Positions 21,175-28,169 of a stretch of 64,000 nucleotides of DNA are shown here, piece after piece. The position numbers and the translations under genes were made by a program. The DNA is from Bacteroidota bacterium (GTDB taxonomy: Bacteria > Bacteroidota > Bacteroidia > Chitinophagales > Chitinophagaceae). The DNA lies in the NCBI GenBank assembly GCA_016868895.1, contig VGFK01000001.1:478896-542895 (forward strand), given 5' to 3'. The notes under the pieces were generated by a model. It was given only the letters and a program-made list of their open reading frames with translations, had not been told where the DNA came from and did no database searches. Position 1 is the first letter of the stretch. Each line of letters opens with the position of its first letter.

Positions 21175-24066
21175 ATGCGCATGAGAAAAACTGTATTGTC
21201 GCTGATAGTAGTGCTCCAGGTACTGTGCGTCGAAGCACAGGATGCCCGCAGATGGGTCGATAGCGTCTTGCAGAACCTGAACGAGGATCAAAAAATTGCA
21301 CAGCTCATCATGGTTCGGCTCTCTTCGATCGACCTTCGAACACGGATCATCAGTTATTATGATACAACCGTAGAACGGGATATTCTCCGGTACAATGTTG
21401 GAGGCATCTGCCTGTTTCAAGGGGGTCCGGTTCGTCAAACACAATGGGTCAATCGGTTTCAATCGATTGCCAAAACACCGATTCTGATTGCCATTGATGG
21501 AGAGACAGGCGTGGGCATGCGCATCGACAGTGTAGCCAATCTTCCAAAGATGATGATGTTGGGTGCCCTGCGCGACACCTCTATTGCGTTTGCATACGGA
21601 CAATGGGTAGCGGAACAGTGTAAACAGATGGGCATTCAGGTGAATTTTGCTCCGGTTGCAGATGTGAACAACAATCCCAATAATCCGGTCATCAATGACC
21701 GGTCGTTTGGAGAAGACAAATACAAAGTTGCAGCACTGGCTGTTCAATACATGTTGGGCATGCAATCGCGCGGAATCATGGGCAGCGCAAAACATTTTCC
21801 CGGTCACGGAGATGTAGATGTGGATTCGCACCTCGCTTTACCGGTGATCAGTAAAACCAAAGAACAATTACAGGAACTTGAATTGTATCCATTCCGTCGA
21901 CTATTTGATGCCGGTGTTGGGAGTGCAATGGTCGGGCATTTGTTTGTTCCGGTGATCGACAGCACGCCCAACCGCGGAACGTCAATTTCTGAAAAAGCAG
22001 TCAACGGTCTGCTGAAAACTGAAATGGGATTCAACGGCATCACCTTTACTGACGCGCTGGAAATGAAAGGTGTAGCAGAAGCTTACCCCAATGGAGGAGC
22101 AGGTGTGGAGTCGTTAATTGCAGGAAACGATATGATGTGTCTACCGGGGGAAGTCGGTACCGTCATTCAAAAAGTAAAAGATGCTATTGCTGCCAACCGC
22201 ATAGGCTGGCAGCAAATTGATGCGCATGTCAGAAAAGTGCTGGAAACAAAATATGCATTGGGACTTTCCAATTGGAAGCCGGTTCCCATTCAAGGATTGG
22301 TAGAAAGGCTGAACGAGAAGAGCCATGACTTGAAAAAATTAGTTGCAGAAAAAGCCATTACACTGGCAAAACACGATGATAAGAGCGCTTTCCCTTTTCC
22401 GATCACGGTCAGCAAACGCGTGGCCCTCTTGGATATTGCAAAAAATCGCTCTACCGAATTCAGTAACCGGATGCGCAGCCATTACAATGCAGATGTATTT
22501 CTCTTTGATCATACCCGCAGTGCATCAGAAGCCGATAGTCTGTACCGAATACTGCAAACGTATGAACATGTGGTGGTCGCCATACATGAATTGCCCCGCT
22601 ACCCTGCGAATAATTTCAATATGAGCAAGTCGGCTGTCGGGTTGATTGATACCATTCTGATGACTATGCCTTCCAATCTGTTCATCTTTGGAAATCCCTA
22701 TGCCGCAAAAAGTTTTTGCCAGGGGAAAAATATCATCATCTGTTACGATGACGATCCCATCACCCACCGGGTGGCAGCGGATATGTTTGCGGGAAACCGT
22801 TCACCCGAGGGACAACTTCCGGTCACCATTTGTTCATCTATGAAAGCCGGAACGGGTTTTTCGATTGAAGCTTCACCTGTTCTGACGAGCACCCCACCTT
22901 CCCGGATCAATGATCGCGTTGATTCCATCATTCAGGATGCCATTGAGCGAAAAGCTGCTCCGGGAATGGTATTGCTTGCGGTAAAAGATGGAAAAATTGT
23001 AGAACAAAGAACCTATGGACATTTGGCATACGATAAGAAAAACGCTACAACGCAGGAAGCGGTATACGACATGGCATCGGTAACCAAGATCTGTGCTACT
23101 ACGTTGTGCATGATGAAACTGGTTGATGAAGGAAAGGTGAGGCTGGATGGGAAGCTGGGGGACTATTTACCCTGGACCCTTGGCACCAATAAAGCTGATT
23201 TAAGCATCAGGGATATTTTGCTGCATCAGGCGGGATTGAAAGCATGGATTCCCTTTTATAAAGAAGTTTCCGATAGTGTGACACAGAAAGCGCTTCCGGA
23301 ATTCTTCAGTAAAAAGATGAGTGCCCGGTATGGTGTGAAAGTAGATGATGGATTGTACATGCGCACAGATTGGCGGGATACCTTGTATGCACGGATTTTG
23401 CAGTCGCCTCTTGAAAAAGAAAAAAAATACATCTACAGCGATAATGATTTTATTTTTTTAGGAGAAGTTGTGAAAGCCGTCAGCGGTCGCTCCCTCGACC
23501 AATATGTGCAGCAACATTTTTATGGTCCGTTAGGGTTCCGAAGTTCAGGCTTCAACCCTACCCAGTTCATCAACACATCCGTGATTGCGCCTACCGAAGA
23601 AGATCCCTATTTCAGGGAGCGGTTGGTGAGAGGGTATGTACACGATCCCGGTGCTGCAATGTTTGGAGGTATTTCGGGGCATGCAGGCTTATTCAGCAAT
23701 GCCTATGAAATTGCCGTGTTGATGCAGTTGGTCATGAACAAAGGCATCTTAAATGGAAAACGCTTTTTTTCGGATTCAACTGTAAGTCAGTTTACCCGTT
23801 ACCAGAGTGATATCAGCAGGCGTGGGCTCGGTTTTGATAAACCGGAAAAAGACAATGCAACACGTACTTCACCTTACCCCACCATTGGTGCATCCCCTCA
23901 GGCCTTTGGACATACCGGATTCACGGGCACCTGTGCATGGGGCGATCCCAAGAGCGGACTTGTTTTTGTATTACTGGCCAATCGGGTGCATCCGAAAGCG
24001 ACCAATACATTTGGGGACCTGAATGTTCGGGGAAAGGTGATGGAAGAATTGCTCAAAGCATATTGA
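21175..24066 (+). CDS. Glycoside hydrolase family 3 (NagZ-like) fused to C-terminal serine beta-lactamase/PBP-like domain
   Basis: MGSAKHFPGHGDVDVDSHLALP (GH3) then ASVTKICATTLCMMKLVDEGKVRLDGKLGDYLP (SxxK), GISGHAGLFSNAYE, AFGHTGFTGTCAWGDP. Confidence 0.93.
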   Translation: MRMRKTVLSLIVVLQVLCVEAQDARRWVDSVLQNLNEDQKIAQLIMVRLSSIDLRTRIISYYDTTVERDILRYNVGGICLFQGGPVRQTQWVNRFQSIAKTPILIAIDGETGVGMRIDSVANLPKMMMLGALRDTSIAFAYGQWVAEQCKQMGIQVNFAPVADVNNNPNNPVINDRSFGEDKYKVAALAVQYMLGMQSRGIMGSAKHFPGHGDVDVDSHLALPVISKTKEQLQELELYPFRRLFDAGVGSAMVGHLFVPVIDSTPNRGTSISEKAVNGLLKTEMGFNGITFTDALEMKGVAEAYPNGGAGVESLIAGNDMMCLPGEVGTVIQKVKDAIAANRIGWQQIDAHVRKVLETKYALGLSNWKPVPIQGLVERLNEKSHDLKKLVAEKAITLAKHDDKSAFPFPITVSKRVALLDIAKNRSTEFSNRMRSHYNADVFLFDHTRSASEADSLYRILQTYEHVVVAIHELPRYPANNFNMSKSAVGLIDTILMTMPSNLFIFGNPYAAKSFCQGKNIIICYDDDPITHRVAADMFAGNRSPEGQLPVTICSSMKAGTGFSIEASPVLTSTPPSRINDRVDSIIQDAIERKAAPGMVLLAVKDGKIVEQRTYGHLAYDKKNATTQEAVYDMASVTKICATTLCMMKLVDEGKVRLDGKLGDYLPWTLGTNKADLSIRDILLHQAGLKAWIPFYKEVSDSVTQKALPEFFSKKMSARYGVKVDDGLYMRTDWRDTLYARILQSPLEKEKKYIYSDNDFIFLGEVVKAVSGRSLDQYVQQHFYGPLGFRSSGFNPTQFINTSVIAPTEEDPYFRERLVRGYVHDPGAAMFGGISGHAGLFSNAYEIAVLMQLVMNKGILNGKRFFSDSTVSQFTRYQSDISRRGLGFDKPEKDNATRTSPYPTIGASPQAFGHTGFTGTCAWGDPKSGLVFVLLANRVHPKATNTFGDLNVRGKVMEELLKAY

Positions 24067-24889
24067 ACTGCGTGCGAACTACTGCTTTTGCGGCTACCCA
24101 GGCTTTGTGGTAATTGGGTATGCGGATACGCTCTTCAAGAATGCGCTGTGGTTGAAGCGCTTTGATTTTCTTGAATAAACTCATGTAATACTTATAGGCA
24201 AGGTAGACGCCAAAGCGAGCTTTGAGCGGAAGCTGTATGATGCCCATGTAGGCATGCCGAAAGTCTTGTTCAATATCTGATTCGATGGCCTCTTTCATTT
24301 CAGGAGTAAATGCATTGAAATCTACTCCCGGAAAATAAACCCGGTTCAGTTGCTGATAATCGGCTTTCACGTCCCGAAGAAAATTCACCTTTTGAAATGC
24401 TGAACCCAATGATTGTGCATGGGGCTTCAGCTTCTCGTATTGTTGACGATCGCCATCGCAGAAAACAAACAGGCACATGAGTCCCACTACTTCCGCACTC
24501 CCATAGATGTATTCAGCATATCCTTGCTGATCATAGTTGGAGCGGTCCAAATCAAACTCCATGCTTTTAAAGAATGCATCAACTAACGCGAGGTCGATGT
24601 TGTATCGGTTCACAGTGATTTGAAAACTGTGCAGGATCGGATTCAGGCTGATTCCTTGAGCGATGGCTTCGTAGGTCTCTTTTTTGAAATTAGCCAGTAG
24701 GCTGATTTTATCAAATCTATGAAACGTATCCACGATCTCATCCGCAAAACGCACCAATCCGTATATGTCATAAATCGGTCCCTGAATATCCGAATGCAAC
24801 AATCGGATGGCGCTGCTGAACGAGGTGCTGTAGCGCTGCGTAGTGATGCGGCTGCATTCGTGAGAAACAGTATGGAAGATACCGATCAT
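24053..24889 (-). CDS. crtB: Phytoene/squalene synthase
   Basis: LVRFADEIVDTFH, YIYGSAEVVGLMCL, FQKVNFLRDVKADYQQLNRVYFP. Confidence 0.93.
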   Translation of the reverse strand: MIGIFHTVSHECSRITTQRYSTSFSSAIRLLHSDIQGPIYDIYGLVRFADEIVDTFHRFDKISLLANFKKETYEAIAQGISLNPILHSFQITVNRYNIDLALVDAFFKSMEFDLDRSNYDQQGYAEYIYGSAEVVGLMCLFVFCDGDRQQYEKLKPHAQSLGSAFQKVNFLRDVKADYQQLNRVYFPGVDFNAFTPEMKEAIESDIEQDFRHAYMGIIQLPLKARFGVYLAYKYYMSLFKKIKALQPQRILEERIRIPNYHKAWVAAKAVVRTQFNML

Positions 24890-24959
24890 CTTGTTGAATA
24901 AAATAAACTAATATAAAGAGTTAAGTTAAACTTAATAAACGAATCAGGGTAGATTTTGT

Positions 24960-26462
24960 TCAATAGGGGTAGAGTTTTAATCCGGGAACGATTTCTTTAT
25001 GGACCAATCCTGCTACGACTTCGCCGCTGATCAGGCTGGGGGGAACGCCTGGACCTGGGACGGTCAGTTGTCCCGTGTAATATAAATGCTTAACCTTCTT
25101 GCTTTTGCAGGAGGGTTTCAAGTGAGCAGTTTGCATCAGGGTATTGGCCAGTCCGTAGGCATTTCCTTTGAAAGCGTTGTAATCTTCCACGAAGTTACTG
25201 TAGGAGTAGGCACGTTTGATCACCACGTGGTTGCGGATATCGACCCCGGTTCTGTTCTGCAGTCGCTCGCACAACAGGTTGAAATAATGTTCCCGAATGC
25301 TCTCGTTGTCCCCGTCCAATCCTGCAGCAATTGGAATCAAGAAGAATAAATTTTCTCCTCCTTCTGGTGCCTGAGAGGGATCGGTCACCGAAGTGGCACT
25401 CAAATAAAAGAGAGGAGCTGCGGGCCAAGAAGGGTGCGTATAGATTTCTTGCGCATGATCAGAGAAGGGAACATCAAAAAATAAGCTGTGGTGTTGGAGT
25501 CCTGGTATACGCGTATTGATACCGACATAATAAATCAGACAACCCGGGGCCATGACCCGTTTATCCCAATACCGATCGGAATAAGAACGATGGGGTGCGT
25601 GCAAGAGTTGGGTTTCAATGAAGTGATAATCAGCTGCACCGATTACGGCATCGGACAGATGGAGGGCGCCGTTCTGCAACCGTATTCCTGTTGCGGTATT
25701 TTCTTCCACTTCTATGGAGGTCACATTGCTATTGAAATGAAAGCGCACTCCTTTTTCAACCGCCAAACGGTGCATGCCCTCAACAATTTTGTACATGCCG
25801 CCAACAGGAAACCAGGTACCCAGTTTGATATCGGCATAATTCATCAAGCTATACAATGCAGGCGTGTGTTCAGGAAGTGCTCCCAGAAACAGCACCGGAA
25901 ACTCCATCATCTGACGGATTTTGGGATGCTTGAAGAAGCGGGCAATGTGCGATTGGATGTCTTTGAATACATCCAATTTGAACAGTCCCCTGATGAGTTC
26001 GCCATCTACTAGTTCCATCAGGGATTGTCCAGGCTTGAAGACCAGTTTATTGATTCCTACCTGGTATTTATATTCTGCTTCGGACATGAATTGATCCAGC
26101 TGCTTGCCCGCACCGGGTTCCATGGATTCAAACAGATCCTTCAATTCCCGGTAGTTAGCCGGAACATCCATGTGGTCGTCTGACCAATAAATGCGATACG
26201 ATGGATCCAGGCGATGCAGCGTATAATAGTCGTCTATTTTTTTTCCAAAAGAGGAAAAGTAATGTTCAAATACATCGGGCATCCAGTACCAGCTGGGACC
26301 CATATCAAAAGTGAAGCCCTCTTGTTTAAAATGCCTGCAGCGTCCACCGGGTTGATCGTGTTTTTCAAAAACATCGACTTCCCAACCGTGATGAGCAAGG
26401 AAAGTAGCAGCAGAGAGGCCTGCAAATCCGCTACCAATTATACTGGCTTTTTTGGGGAGCAC
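24960..26462 (-). CDS. crtI: Phytoene desaturase
   Basis: KKASIIGSGFAGLSAATFLAHHGWEVDVFEKHDQPGGRCRHF, C-terminal YYTGQLTVPGPGVPPSLISGEVVAGLV; probable GTG start at 26462, just after the sigma gene stop. Confidence 0.93.
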   Translation of the reverse strand: MLPKKASIIGSGFAGLSAATFLAHHGWEVDVFEKHDQPGGRCRHFKQEGFTFDMGPSWYWMPDVFEHYFSSFGKKIDDYYTLHRLDPSYRIYWSDDHMDVPANYRELKDLFESMEPGAGKQLDQFMSEAEYKYQVGINKLVFKPGQSLMELVDGELIRGLFKLDVFKDIQSHIARFFKHPKIRQMMEFPVLFLGALPEHTPALYSLMNYADIKLGTWFPVGGMYKIVEGMHRLAVEKGVRFHFNSNVTSIEVEENTATGIRLQNGALHLSDAVIGAADYHFIETQLLHAPHRSYSDRYWDKRVMAPGCLIYYVGINTRIPGLQHHSLFFDVPFSDHAQEIYTHPSWPAAPLFYLSATSVTDPSQAPEGGENLFFLIPIAAGLDGDNESIREHYFNLLCERLQNRTGVDIRNHVVIKRAYSYSNFVEDYNAFKGNAYGLANTLMQTAHLKPSCKSKKVKHLYYTGQLTVPGPGVPPSLISGEVVAGLVHKEIVPGLKLYPY

Positions 26463-26475
26463 GCTGGGAAGATAA

Positions 26476-26976
26476 TCAATACTTGGTAATCTGTTCTTTG
26501 AGCAGTCGACGTGCAAAGTGAATACGGCTCTTGATTGTTCCCAACGGTTCATTCAACATATCCGCAATTTCATGGTACTTGTATCCTTCAAAATACAACA
26601 TGAACGGTTGCTTGAATATACCGGGAAGATCATGCAGCGCCTTCATCACATTTTTCATGCCGATGTTTGCTTCTGCTGAGTTGGGGACTGCCGATTGATT
26701 GTGATCCAGAAAATAATCATTTGGTGTGCTGTCGAATATGGTATTCTGCTTCGACTTGCGGCGGTAGCTATTGATGAAAATATTGCGCATGATGGTGTAG
26801 AGCCATGCTTTGATGTTGGTCCCCACACTGTATTTCTCTTTATTGGACAACGCACGGAACATGGTTTCCTGCAACAGGTCTTTTGCGCTTTCGCTGTCTT
26901 TGGTCAGGGTCACTGCAAATGGCTTGAGGTATTCCGTGTTCTGCAACAACAATTGATTGAATTCCTGTGTAGACAT
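26476..26976 (-). CDS. ECF-type RNA polymerase sigma factor
   Basis: DLLQETMFRALSNKEKY, IKAWLYTIMRNIFINSYRR, EGYKYHEIADMLNEPLGTIKSRIHFARRLL. Confidence 0.95.
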   Translation of the reverse strand: MSTQEFNQLLLQNTEYLKPFAVTLTKDSESAKDLLQETMFRALSNKEKYSVGTNIKAWLYTIMRNIFINSYRRKSKQNTIFDSTPNDYFLDHNQSAVPNSAEANIGMKNVMKALHDLPGIFKQPFMLYFEGYKYHEIADMLNEPLGTIKSRIHFARRLLKEQITKY

Positions 26977-26980
26977 ACGA

Positions 26981-27069
26981 TTTGTTTAATTTTTTTCAAA
27001 ACAAATTTAAACAAATCAATTGACGACAGACTAATATTTGTTTAATTTTTTTTAAAAATTATTAAACAG
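26981..27069. promoter_or_regulatory. Cluster of TTTGTTTAA-type sites upstream of the ECF sigma gene
   Basis: Exact TTTGTTTAA at 26981-26989(+), 27007-27015(-), 27037-27045(+); partial at 26998-27006 and 27061-27069; 16-bp exact direct repeat TTTGTTTAATTTTTTT at 26981 and 27037. Confidence 0.65.
27002..27009 (-). promoter_or_regulatory. Candidate -7 box TAAATTTG for the ECF sigma gene
   Basis: Exact TAnnTTTG on minus strand, 25 bp upstream of the ATG. Confidence 0.5.
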
Positions 27070-27113
27070 CGCTAAAGCAATGATTAACAGCGAATTACAG
27101 TTGAAAATTCCTC

Positions 27114-27995
27114 CTATACCAGGCTGGTAATGAACTCCGTTACCTCTTGCAGGGAGCGTTTGAAGTGAATTTGGGGAGGAATTTTCTTCTCGTAAGAAGC
27201 GGCTAGTCGACCAGAAATAATCAAGGGAACCGACCCAAAGCGCTTCAGGGACTGATGAATGAATTTATCGAAACTGAATACACTGGACACCGAAGTCAGG
27301 TGGGTATAAATGAAATCAGGATTCTTGTATTTGACCACATACTCCACGTCTTCCAACGGAACATTGGCACCGAGATAATACACGCGCAGACCACGGCTCT
27401 TCAATAAGTACTGAATGAACAGCAATCCCAATTCATGGAATTCTCCCTCTGGTAAGAAAAGGAGTCCGGAACGCTTCAATTGAAACATGGGATTGACTTC
27501 CTGTGTTCCAACAATTAGTTTTTGACGAATGATGTTGGAGACCAAGTGCTCTTGTGCGGGATTGATGTGGTCGGTAATCCACAACACACCAATGCGTACC
27601 ATAAAGGGGAAAATCACCTGGTGGATTGTTTTTTCTATGCCTTTGGCTCGTATATGATCATCCAGTGTTCCTTCGAAATCTTCGAGGCTCATGTCAACCA
27701 TCGCCTGAATCAGCGCATTGACGATGCGCTCCTGCTGCGCTTGGACATTGGCAATGCTGAGGATCTTTGTTTTGATCTCGTCATCGTTCATACGATCGAT
27801 GTGAGAAATCTTGAACCCGTATTTGTTCAGCAAAGAAATGTTGAGGATCTTCTTGAGCTCTTCGTTGTTGTAATAACGGATGTTCGTATCGGTTCGCTGC
27901 GGCTTTAAAAAACCATAACGCTGCTCCCATATGCGGATGGTGTGAGCTTTGATGCCCGTTAGATTTTCCAGGTCCTTGATGGTGAATGCGTTCAT
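27114..27995 (-). CDS. MerR-family regulator with CarH-like cobalamin-binding domain
   Basis: MerR HTH (FTIKDLENLTGIKAHTIRIWEQRYGFLKPQRTDTNIRYY); W-x9-EH (WITDHINPAQEH) and E-x-H-x-x-G (EFHELG) motifs. Confidence 0.92.
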   Translation of the reverse strand: MNAFTIKDLENLTGIKAHTIRIWEQRYGFLKPQRTDTNIRYYNNEELKKILNISLLNKYGFKISHIDRMNDDEIKTKILSIANVQAQQERIVNALIQAMVDMSLEDFEGTLDDHIRAKGIEKTIHQVIFPFMVRIGVLWITDHINPAQEHLVSNIIRQKLIVGTQEVNPMFQLKRSGLLFLPEGEFHELGLLFIQYLLKSRGLRVYYLGANVPLEDVEYVVKYKNPDFIYTHLTSVSSVFSFDKFIHQSLKRFGSVPLIISGRLAASYEKKIPPQIHFKRSLQEVTEFITSLV

Positions 27996-28169
27996 AGTGT
28001 TATAACACGGGGTTTTGCGAATTGTTGTACCCTACCTACCGGAATGATAAATAAGGCGGGAGCCGGGGAGCCTAAGAACGGAGCTAAAGTACAATGTGGA
28101 AGCTATTCAACAGATTTGTTTCACAATTGTTTAAAAAAATAGATAAAATTGACTGCAAACCATAAACAA

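Follow-up and report, generated by a model that had tools for sequence, protein, structure and literature searches.

A B12-dependent photoreceptor that represses an operon of an ECF sigma factor gene, crtI and crtB is strongly supported, by sequence conservation and by a structural model, in a 64,000-nucleotide stretch of a Bacteroidota genome (hereafter, the window). A two-tier, self-limiting light circuit, in which the CarH-type protein would repress sigma-crtI-crtB and the sigma factor would in turn drive photolyase, the late carotenoid genes and carH itself, is considered likely. The original prediction had placed merR directly upstream of sigma-crtI-crtB on one strand, and this arrangement is borne out, as all four open reading frames are on the minus strand (Table 1). 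The order merR-sigma-crtI-crtB is kept in about 30 same-genus genomes and also in most of the 80 named relatives; in L072, L075, L076 and L079, approximately 1–3.5 kb of other sequence separates merR from sigma, and sigma retains the operator described below. The sigma factor is of the small ECF type (Pfam, NCBIfam), with no anti-sigma gene adjoining it. The open reading frame of crtI as listed (24960-26552, minus strand) starts inside the sigma gene; its likely start is instead the GTG at 26462, 13 bp past the sigma stop, as in relatives, and its product passes the NCBIfam model CrtID (bifunctional phytoene desaturase/3,4-desaturase) with 718 bits (cut-off 640). In the genus, the conserved downstream neighbour of crtB encodes a GH3 glycosidase with a fused beta-lactamase-family domain (21175-24066, plus strand).

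Table 1. Genes and predicted regulatory elements of the locus, in window positions
Feature	Position	Strand	Description
merR/carH-like gene	27114..27995	-	293 aa; MerR DNA-binding, four-helix-bundle B12-binding and Rossmann B12 domains
ECF sigma factor gene	26476..26976	-	166 aa; Sigma70_r2 and r4_2 (Pfam)
crtI/crtID, phytoene desaturase/3,4-desaturase	24960..26462	-	likely GTG start; NCBIfam CrtID
crtB, phytoene synthase	24053..24889	-	SQS_PSY (Pfam)
Predicted ECF-type promoter of merR	28004..28026	-	AACAATTCGCAAAACCCCGTGTT; TGTT ends 8 nt before ATG
Distal CarH operator palindrome, predicted	27038..27069	-	CTGTTTAA-N16-TTAAACAA; 1 mismatch
Proximal CarH operator palindrome, predicted	26982..27014	-	TTGTTTAA-N17-TTAAACAA; 0 mismatches
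Bacteroidota -7 box of the sigma operon	27002..27009	-	TAAATTTG (TAnnTTTG); starts within the proximal palindrome (left arm)

By its Pfam domains, four published light-response motifs and predicted fold, the merR product is a CarH/LitR-type AdoCbl regulator. Its MerR_1, B12-binding_2 and B12-binding domains all exceed the Pfam cut-offs, and the residues W139, I140, E149, H150, E185, H187 and G190 are present (W139-I140-x8-E149-H150; E185-x-H187-x2-G190); the cobalamin-binding ExHx2G and adenosyl-capping Wx9EH motifs that had been read in this protein are thereby confirmed residue by residue. Across 67 Bacteroidota homologues, W139, E149, E185 and H187 are invariant, H150 is found in 66, and the glycine of the lower-ligand ExHx2G motif (G190 here) in 51. 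The light-response signature applied here, GxxW, EH, GxxH and GxxxP, consists of the SignatureFinder motifs by which a published screen calls light-responsive cobalamin domains (PMC11796333); all four are present in the window protein (GVLW, EH, GEFH and GANVP) and in 51/67 homologues. An AlphaFold model built on the 67 relatives has a mean pLDDT of 93.1, and Thermus CarH is the top PDB match by both sequence and fold (Foldseek 5c8e, E 2.6e-15). The CarH reading is weakened by two features: merR misses the equivalog cut-off of 400 of the NCBIfam model TransRegCarH (NF052513), scoring 108.8 bits with what is yet its best-scoring NCBIfam model, and in the classic B12 motif the Ser and one Gly of GG appear replaced (THLT, SGR), with His in the column in 44/67. 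Cobalamin adenosyltransferase, the maker of AdoCbl, is encoded in the same genome. A second CarH-like MerR protein (33% identity; L031:6837-7748, G000:C2:323845-324717) keeps the Trp, the EH and the ligand His; its gene is not beside crt genes, and an operator-like site with two mismatches lies between it and a divergent signal-peptidase-like gene.

When the sigma upstream regions of relatives were compared side by side, repeated inverted arms, TTTGTTTAA and TTAAACAAA, were seen at a gap of 16 or 17 bases; upstream of sigma, two such palindromes (TTGTTTAA-N16/17-TTAAACAA) stand about 55 bp apart. In 80 independently retrieved loci, 91 arm pairs with at most one mismatch occur at gap 16/17, and other gaps give at most 7 each. 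Within 931 kb of related loci, 89 of the 91 sites are located upstream of sigma or merR at a distance of no more than 400 bp; operator sites numbered 0, 0 and 0 when these 931 kb were Markov-shuffled three times. At the same tolerance of one mismatch, the operator is found in 88/105 sigma upstream regions (0.1 expected); among 100 non-redundant sigma upstreams, 72 carry two palindromes, mostly 55–57 bp apart, and 27 carry one, while in the single upstream left over (L049) the operator overlaps the sigma start. In 58/58 aligned cases the proximal palindrome contributes, with its left arm, the TA of the Bacteroidota -7 box (TAnnTTTG-like). The distal palindrome stops at the expected start of the -33 region, and between the two palindromes the sequence is unconserved except for a weak TTTG. 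The 1.75-Mb genome contains only two matches to TTGTTTAN{18,19}TAAACAA, and the proximal palindrome is one of them. The other exact palindrome (L133:5027-5059, G000:C3:100026-100058) precedes the open reading frame of hemD (uroporphyrinogen-III synthase) by 51 bp; this operator-like site was not counted and may be chance, a reversed-pattern control also yielding two matches in the genome. Genome-wide operator matches in L129, L134, L137-L139 and L142 were dropped, as they lie inside or at coding sequence that is conserved among close relatives.

The operator also keeps company with the regulator: it is present in 42/47 genomes with the regulator versus 2/14 without it (p 2.6e-7, kinship of genomes ignored) and, among order-level genomes alone, in 10/13 versus 2/11 (p 0.012, kinship likewise ignored), regulator absences having been rechecked by profile search. 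It remains at sigma-crtI or sigma where merR is located elsewhere (L121, L123, L136), is found on crtI-crtB itself in G048 (L126), which lacks an adjacent sigma, and precedes merR-crtI-crtB in L050. Its half-site core TnnACA matches the CarH repeat nAnnTnnACAn (PMC8156234), and the operator overlaps the promoter, the half-sites being arranged as inverted pairs and not in tandem; perhaps one tetramer is bound on four half-sites, or two dimers. The sites themselves are recognized by their conservation, and binding and repression by the CarH-type protein are what we infer at them. Fold, motifs and, most of all, the phylogenetically conserved operator at the sigma promoter strongly support the proposal that the B12 MerR protein acts as repressor of sigma-crtI-crtB. 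No CarH operator was found within 1.5 kb of photolyase in 30 loci, nor on crtZ in 30 loci. Elsewhere, in two different families of the order, fasciclin (FAS1) lipoprotein genes are immediately preceded by CarH-type palindromes (L128:3435-3466, L135:3118-3150), and carotenoid binding is possible in FAS1 proteins (AstaP, PMC10147662). Further palindromes adjoin GTP cyclohydrolase I/SDR genes in G043 (L116:2729-2760) and, in G049, coincide with the beginning of a bacteriorhodopsin-like gene (L124:3694-3725), which suggests, from sequence, that the light regulon may be broader in other Bacteroidota.

In most same-genus genomes merR has no palindrome upstream and carries instead a conserved AAC-N16-TGTT element, common to merR, photolyase, crtZ (which crtY adjoins) and a cruF-like gene and usually placed 8–9 nt before the ATG. 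At merR upstreams the element occurs at spacing 16 in 65/118 and at 16/17 in 74 (3.1 expected), and it is scarce upstream of sigma (2/95) and cpsB (0/26). Similarly, it is found in 18/30 crtZ upstreams at spacing 16/17, standing farther from the ATG within the genus, and in photolyase upstreams in 16/30 at spacing 16 and in 18/30 overall, mostly 8–9 nt before the ATG. When spacing 16 is combined with an ATG distance of 7–10 nt, 59 genes are retrieved, namely 39 merR, 15 photolyase, 3 crtZ, 1 crtI and 1 cruF-like; with the ATG distance fixed, other spacings each give at most 6 light or carotenoid genes, and unrelated genes are flat. In G052 (L049:4079), crtI lies with crtB outside the sigma operon and carries AAC-N16-TGTT. 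The regulon of the window's genome was sampled by targeted searches; its photolyase (L150:1452, G000:C2) has AACCAAAATGCCGCTCATGTGTT 8 nt before the ATG, in the same layout as merR, the transcript of which is predicted to be near-leaderless. A conserved sigma-type promoter was also sought before crtB, with no convincing result (6/80 versus 1.7 expected). In two relatives, a small conserved gene near merR, with a product SRPBCC-like by eye, has AAC-N16-TGTT 8 nt before its ATG (L229:5450 and L230:5450).

Classical ECF promoters have a GAACTT-like -35, which the arms of AAC-N16-TGTT resemble, and the element is probably an ECF-type promoter read by this sigma factor; the promoters are defined by their conservation, and their use by this sigma, which we infer, is the least certain step of the model. 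Under an alternative that we regard as unlikely, the CarH-type repressor of sigma-crtI-crtB would be retained and the element would be the promoter of another ECF sigma factor or a second, everted CarH site, given that the AAC/GTT symmetry could accommodate a regulator other than sigma and that the left arm in distant relatives can resemble the CarH half-site TAAACAA. However, the left arm (AAC[a/c/t]..TTT) and the right arm (TGTT[A/T]) are not symmetric, no ACA core is present in the left arm at photolyase (AACCAAA), and the position-fixed element occurs in 43/96 merR genes with a neighbouring sigma versus 0/16 without (p 2.2e-4), being missing from 16/16 of the latter.

With the element read as a promoter of this sigma factor, the circuit would run as follows. 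In the dark, the AdoCbl-loaded CarH-type protein would occupy the two 32-33-bp palindromes that bracket and overlap the housekeeping promoter and block sigma-crtI-crtB. In green or blue light, the Co-C bond of AdoCbl would be split, as motif and fold suggest, and the protein would leave the DNA, whereupon sigma, CrtI and CrtB would be made. The sigma factor, having no anti-sigma neighbour, would then bring RNA polymerase to AAC-N16-TGTT at photolyase, crtZ, the cruF-like gene and merR. Renewed CarH would shut the operon once darkness and fresh AdoCbl return, closing a negative feedback via merR.

The original prediction had drawn attention to the Ile after W139 and to the different photochemistry that might follow. 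The Ile is there, and altered photochemistry is a reasonable expectation, but it is not peculiar to this protein: in the 67 Bacteroidota homologues the residue is L in 21, Q in 19, V in 12, I in 6, M in 6, T in 2 and A in 1, the bis-His-type His being found in 0/67, so that its absence is, by sequence, a property of the clade. Given that this His is variable among CarH proteins (PMC9304148, PMC11796333), it is not needed for membership of the CarH family. A bis-His light state via that position is therefore ruled out, and water/hydroxo or another residue must serve; a His four residues past the Trp (H143 here), present in 36/67 and located in the AlphaFold model in a loop after the helix, is a candidate substitute upper ligand.

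The missing equivalent of His132 in 67/67 homologues also bears on an improbable reading in which the B12 protein would respond to cobalamin level or redox/oxygen, and not to light, and would repress carotenogenesis at times of abundant AdoCbl. In one study TtCarH H132A mostly stays tetrameric and largely fails to disassemble under light, the same paper mentioning an earlier report of disassembly (PMC10442372). On the other hand, every adenosyl-capping motif is retained here, photolyase, a light-repair gene, is in the second tier, and CtMerR (Arg), SasPcob (Gln) and AbDPcob (Tyr) still photoconvert without a His after the Trp (PMC11796333). These three proteins, which belong to other organisms and have other output domains or targets, also carry the signature motifs, and light sensing is preferred for the window protein.

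It had been suggested that the carotenoid end product may be acyclic or completed elsewhere, and CrtY-family cyclase, CrtZ-like, CrtD and CruF-like proteins are indeed encoded on another contig. Contig C3 of the same genome carries an Idi-like NUDIX protein, CrtD (551.6 bits, cut-off 500), a PF04240 protein, a CrtZ-like protein assigned by eye from sequence resemblance and with no Pfam match, and a PF05834 lycopene cyclase, the last being found in place of a PF18916-type lycopene cyclase, which is absent. From pathway knowledge, a saproxanthin-type product would fit this gene set.

Among known systems, the AdoCbl photoreceptor-repressor CarH of Thermus thermophilus (also of B. megaterium and M. 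xanthus) has the domain order, Wx9EH, ExHx2G and fold in common with the window protein, together with a similar recognition helix (RxWEQRY versus RxWERRY), the half-site core TnnACA and an operator over the target promoter. In contrast to CarH, the 67 homologues have no His after the Trp, identity is only about 23%, the target is a sigma-crt operon, and the operator is built from two copies of an inverted pair of half-sites with a 16/17-bp gap and not from 3-4 tandem 11-bp direct repeats. As is predicted here, the light regulon of Pseudomonas class II LitR (PplR) includes photolyase and the regulator itself, and also folE (PMC9758184), but class II LitR is without the Rossmann B12-binding domain, whereas the protein here has both B12 domains. 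MliR of Bizionia, which has no effector domain, was set aside as a comparison.

The closest circuit is LitR-LitS-crt of Streptomyces coelicolor, in which a B12 MerR regulator controls a carotenoid-driving ECF sigma (PMC12705666); unlike there, sigma here shares one operon with crtI-crtB, and its predicted targets are merR, photolyase, crtZ and the cruF-like gene, with feedback onto merR. Light-activated LitR is described as promoting litS transcription (PMC12705666), and a regulator that likewise activates in the light is the least probable reading of the present locus, since a proximal palindrome over the -7 box and a distal one ending at the expected -33 start have the geometry of a steric repressor; dark repression is proposed here.

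The arrangement is real and well supported as a CarH-type light circuit, which differs from the known ones in operator layout, the missing His, the shared operon and the predicted feedback onto merR. No Bacteroidota CarH study was found in the open-licence literature searched, in which light-induced carotenoids are recorded for Chryseobacterium lacus (Bacteroidota) with no regulator assigned (PMC7064467). With the operator and the second-tier promoter, precise DNA targets are at hand in isolates in culture, for example Sediminibacterium salmoneum, Hydrotalea sandarakina and Ferruginibacter paludis, and the clade offers a natural protein set for the disputed need of an upper His ligand in light-driven release. 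There is an even chance that, in many Bacteroidota, a His-less AdoCbl photoreceptor on inverted operators feeds an anti-sigma-less ECF sigma factor, the regulon of which would comprise photolyase, late carotenoid and photoreceptor genes in a closed negative-feedback loop.
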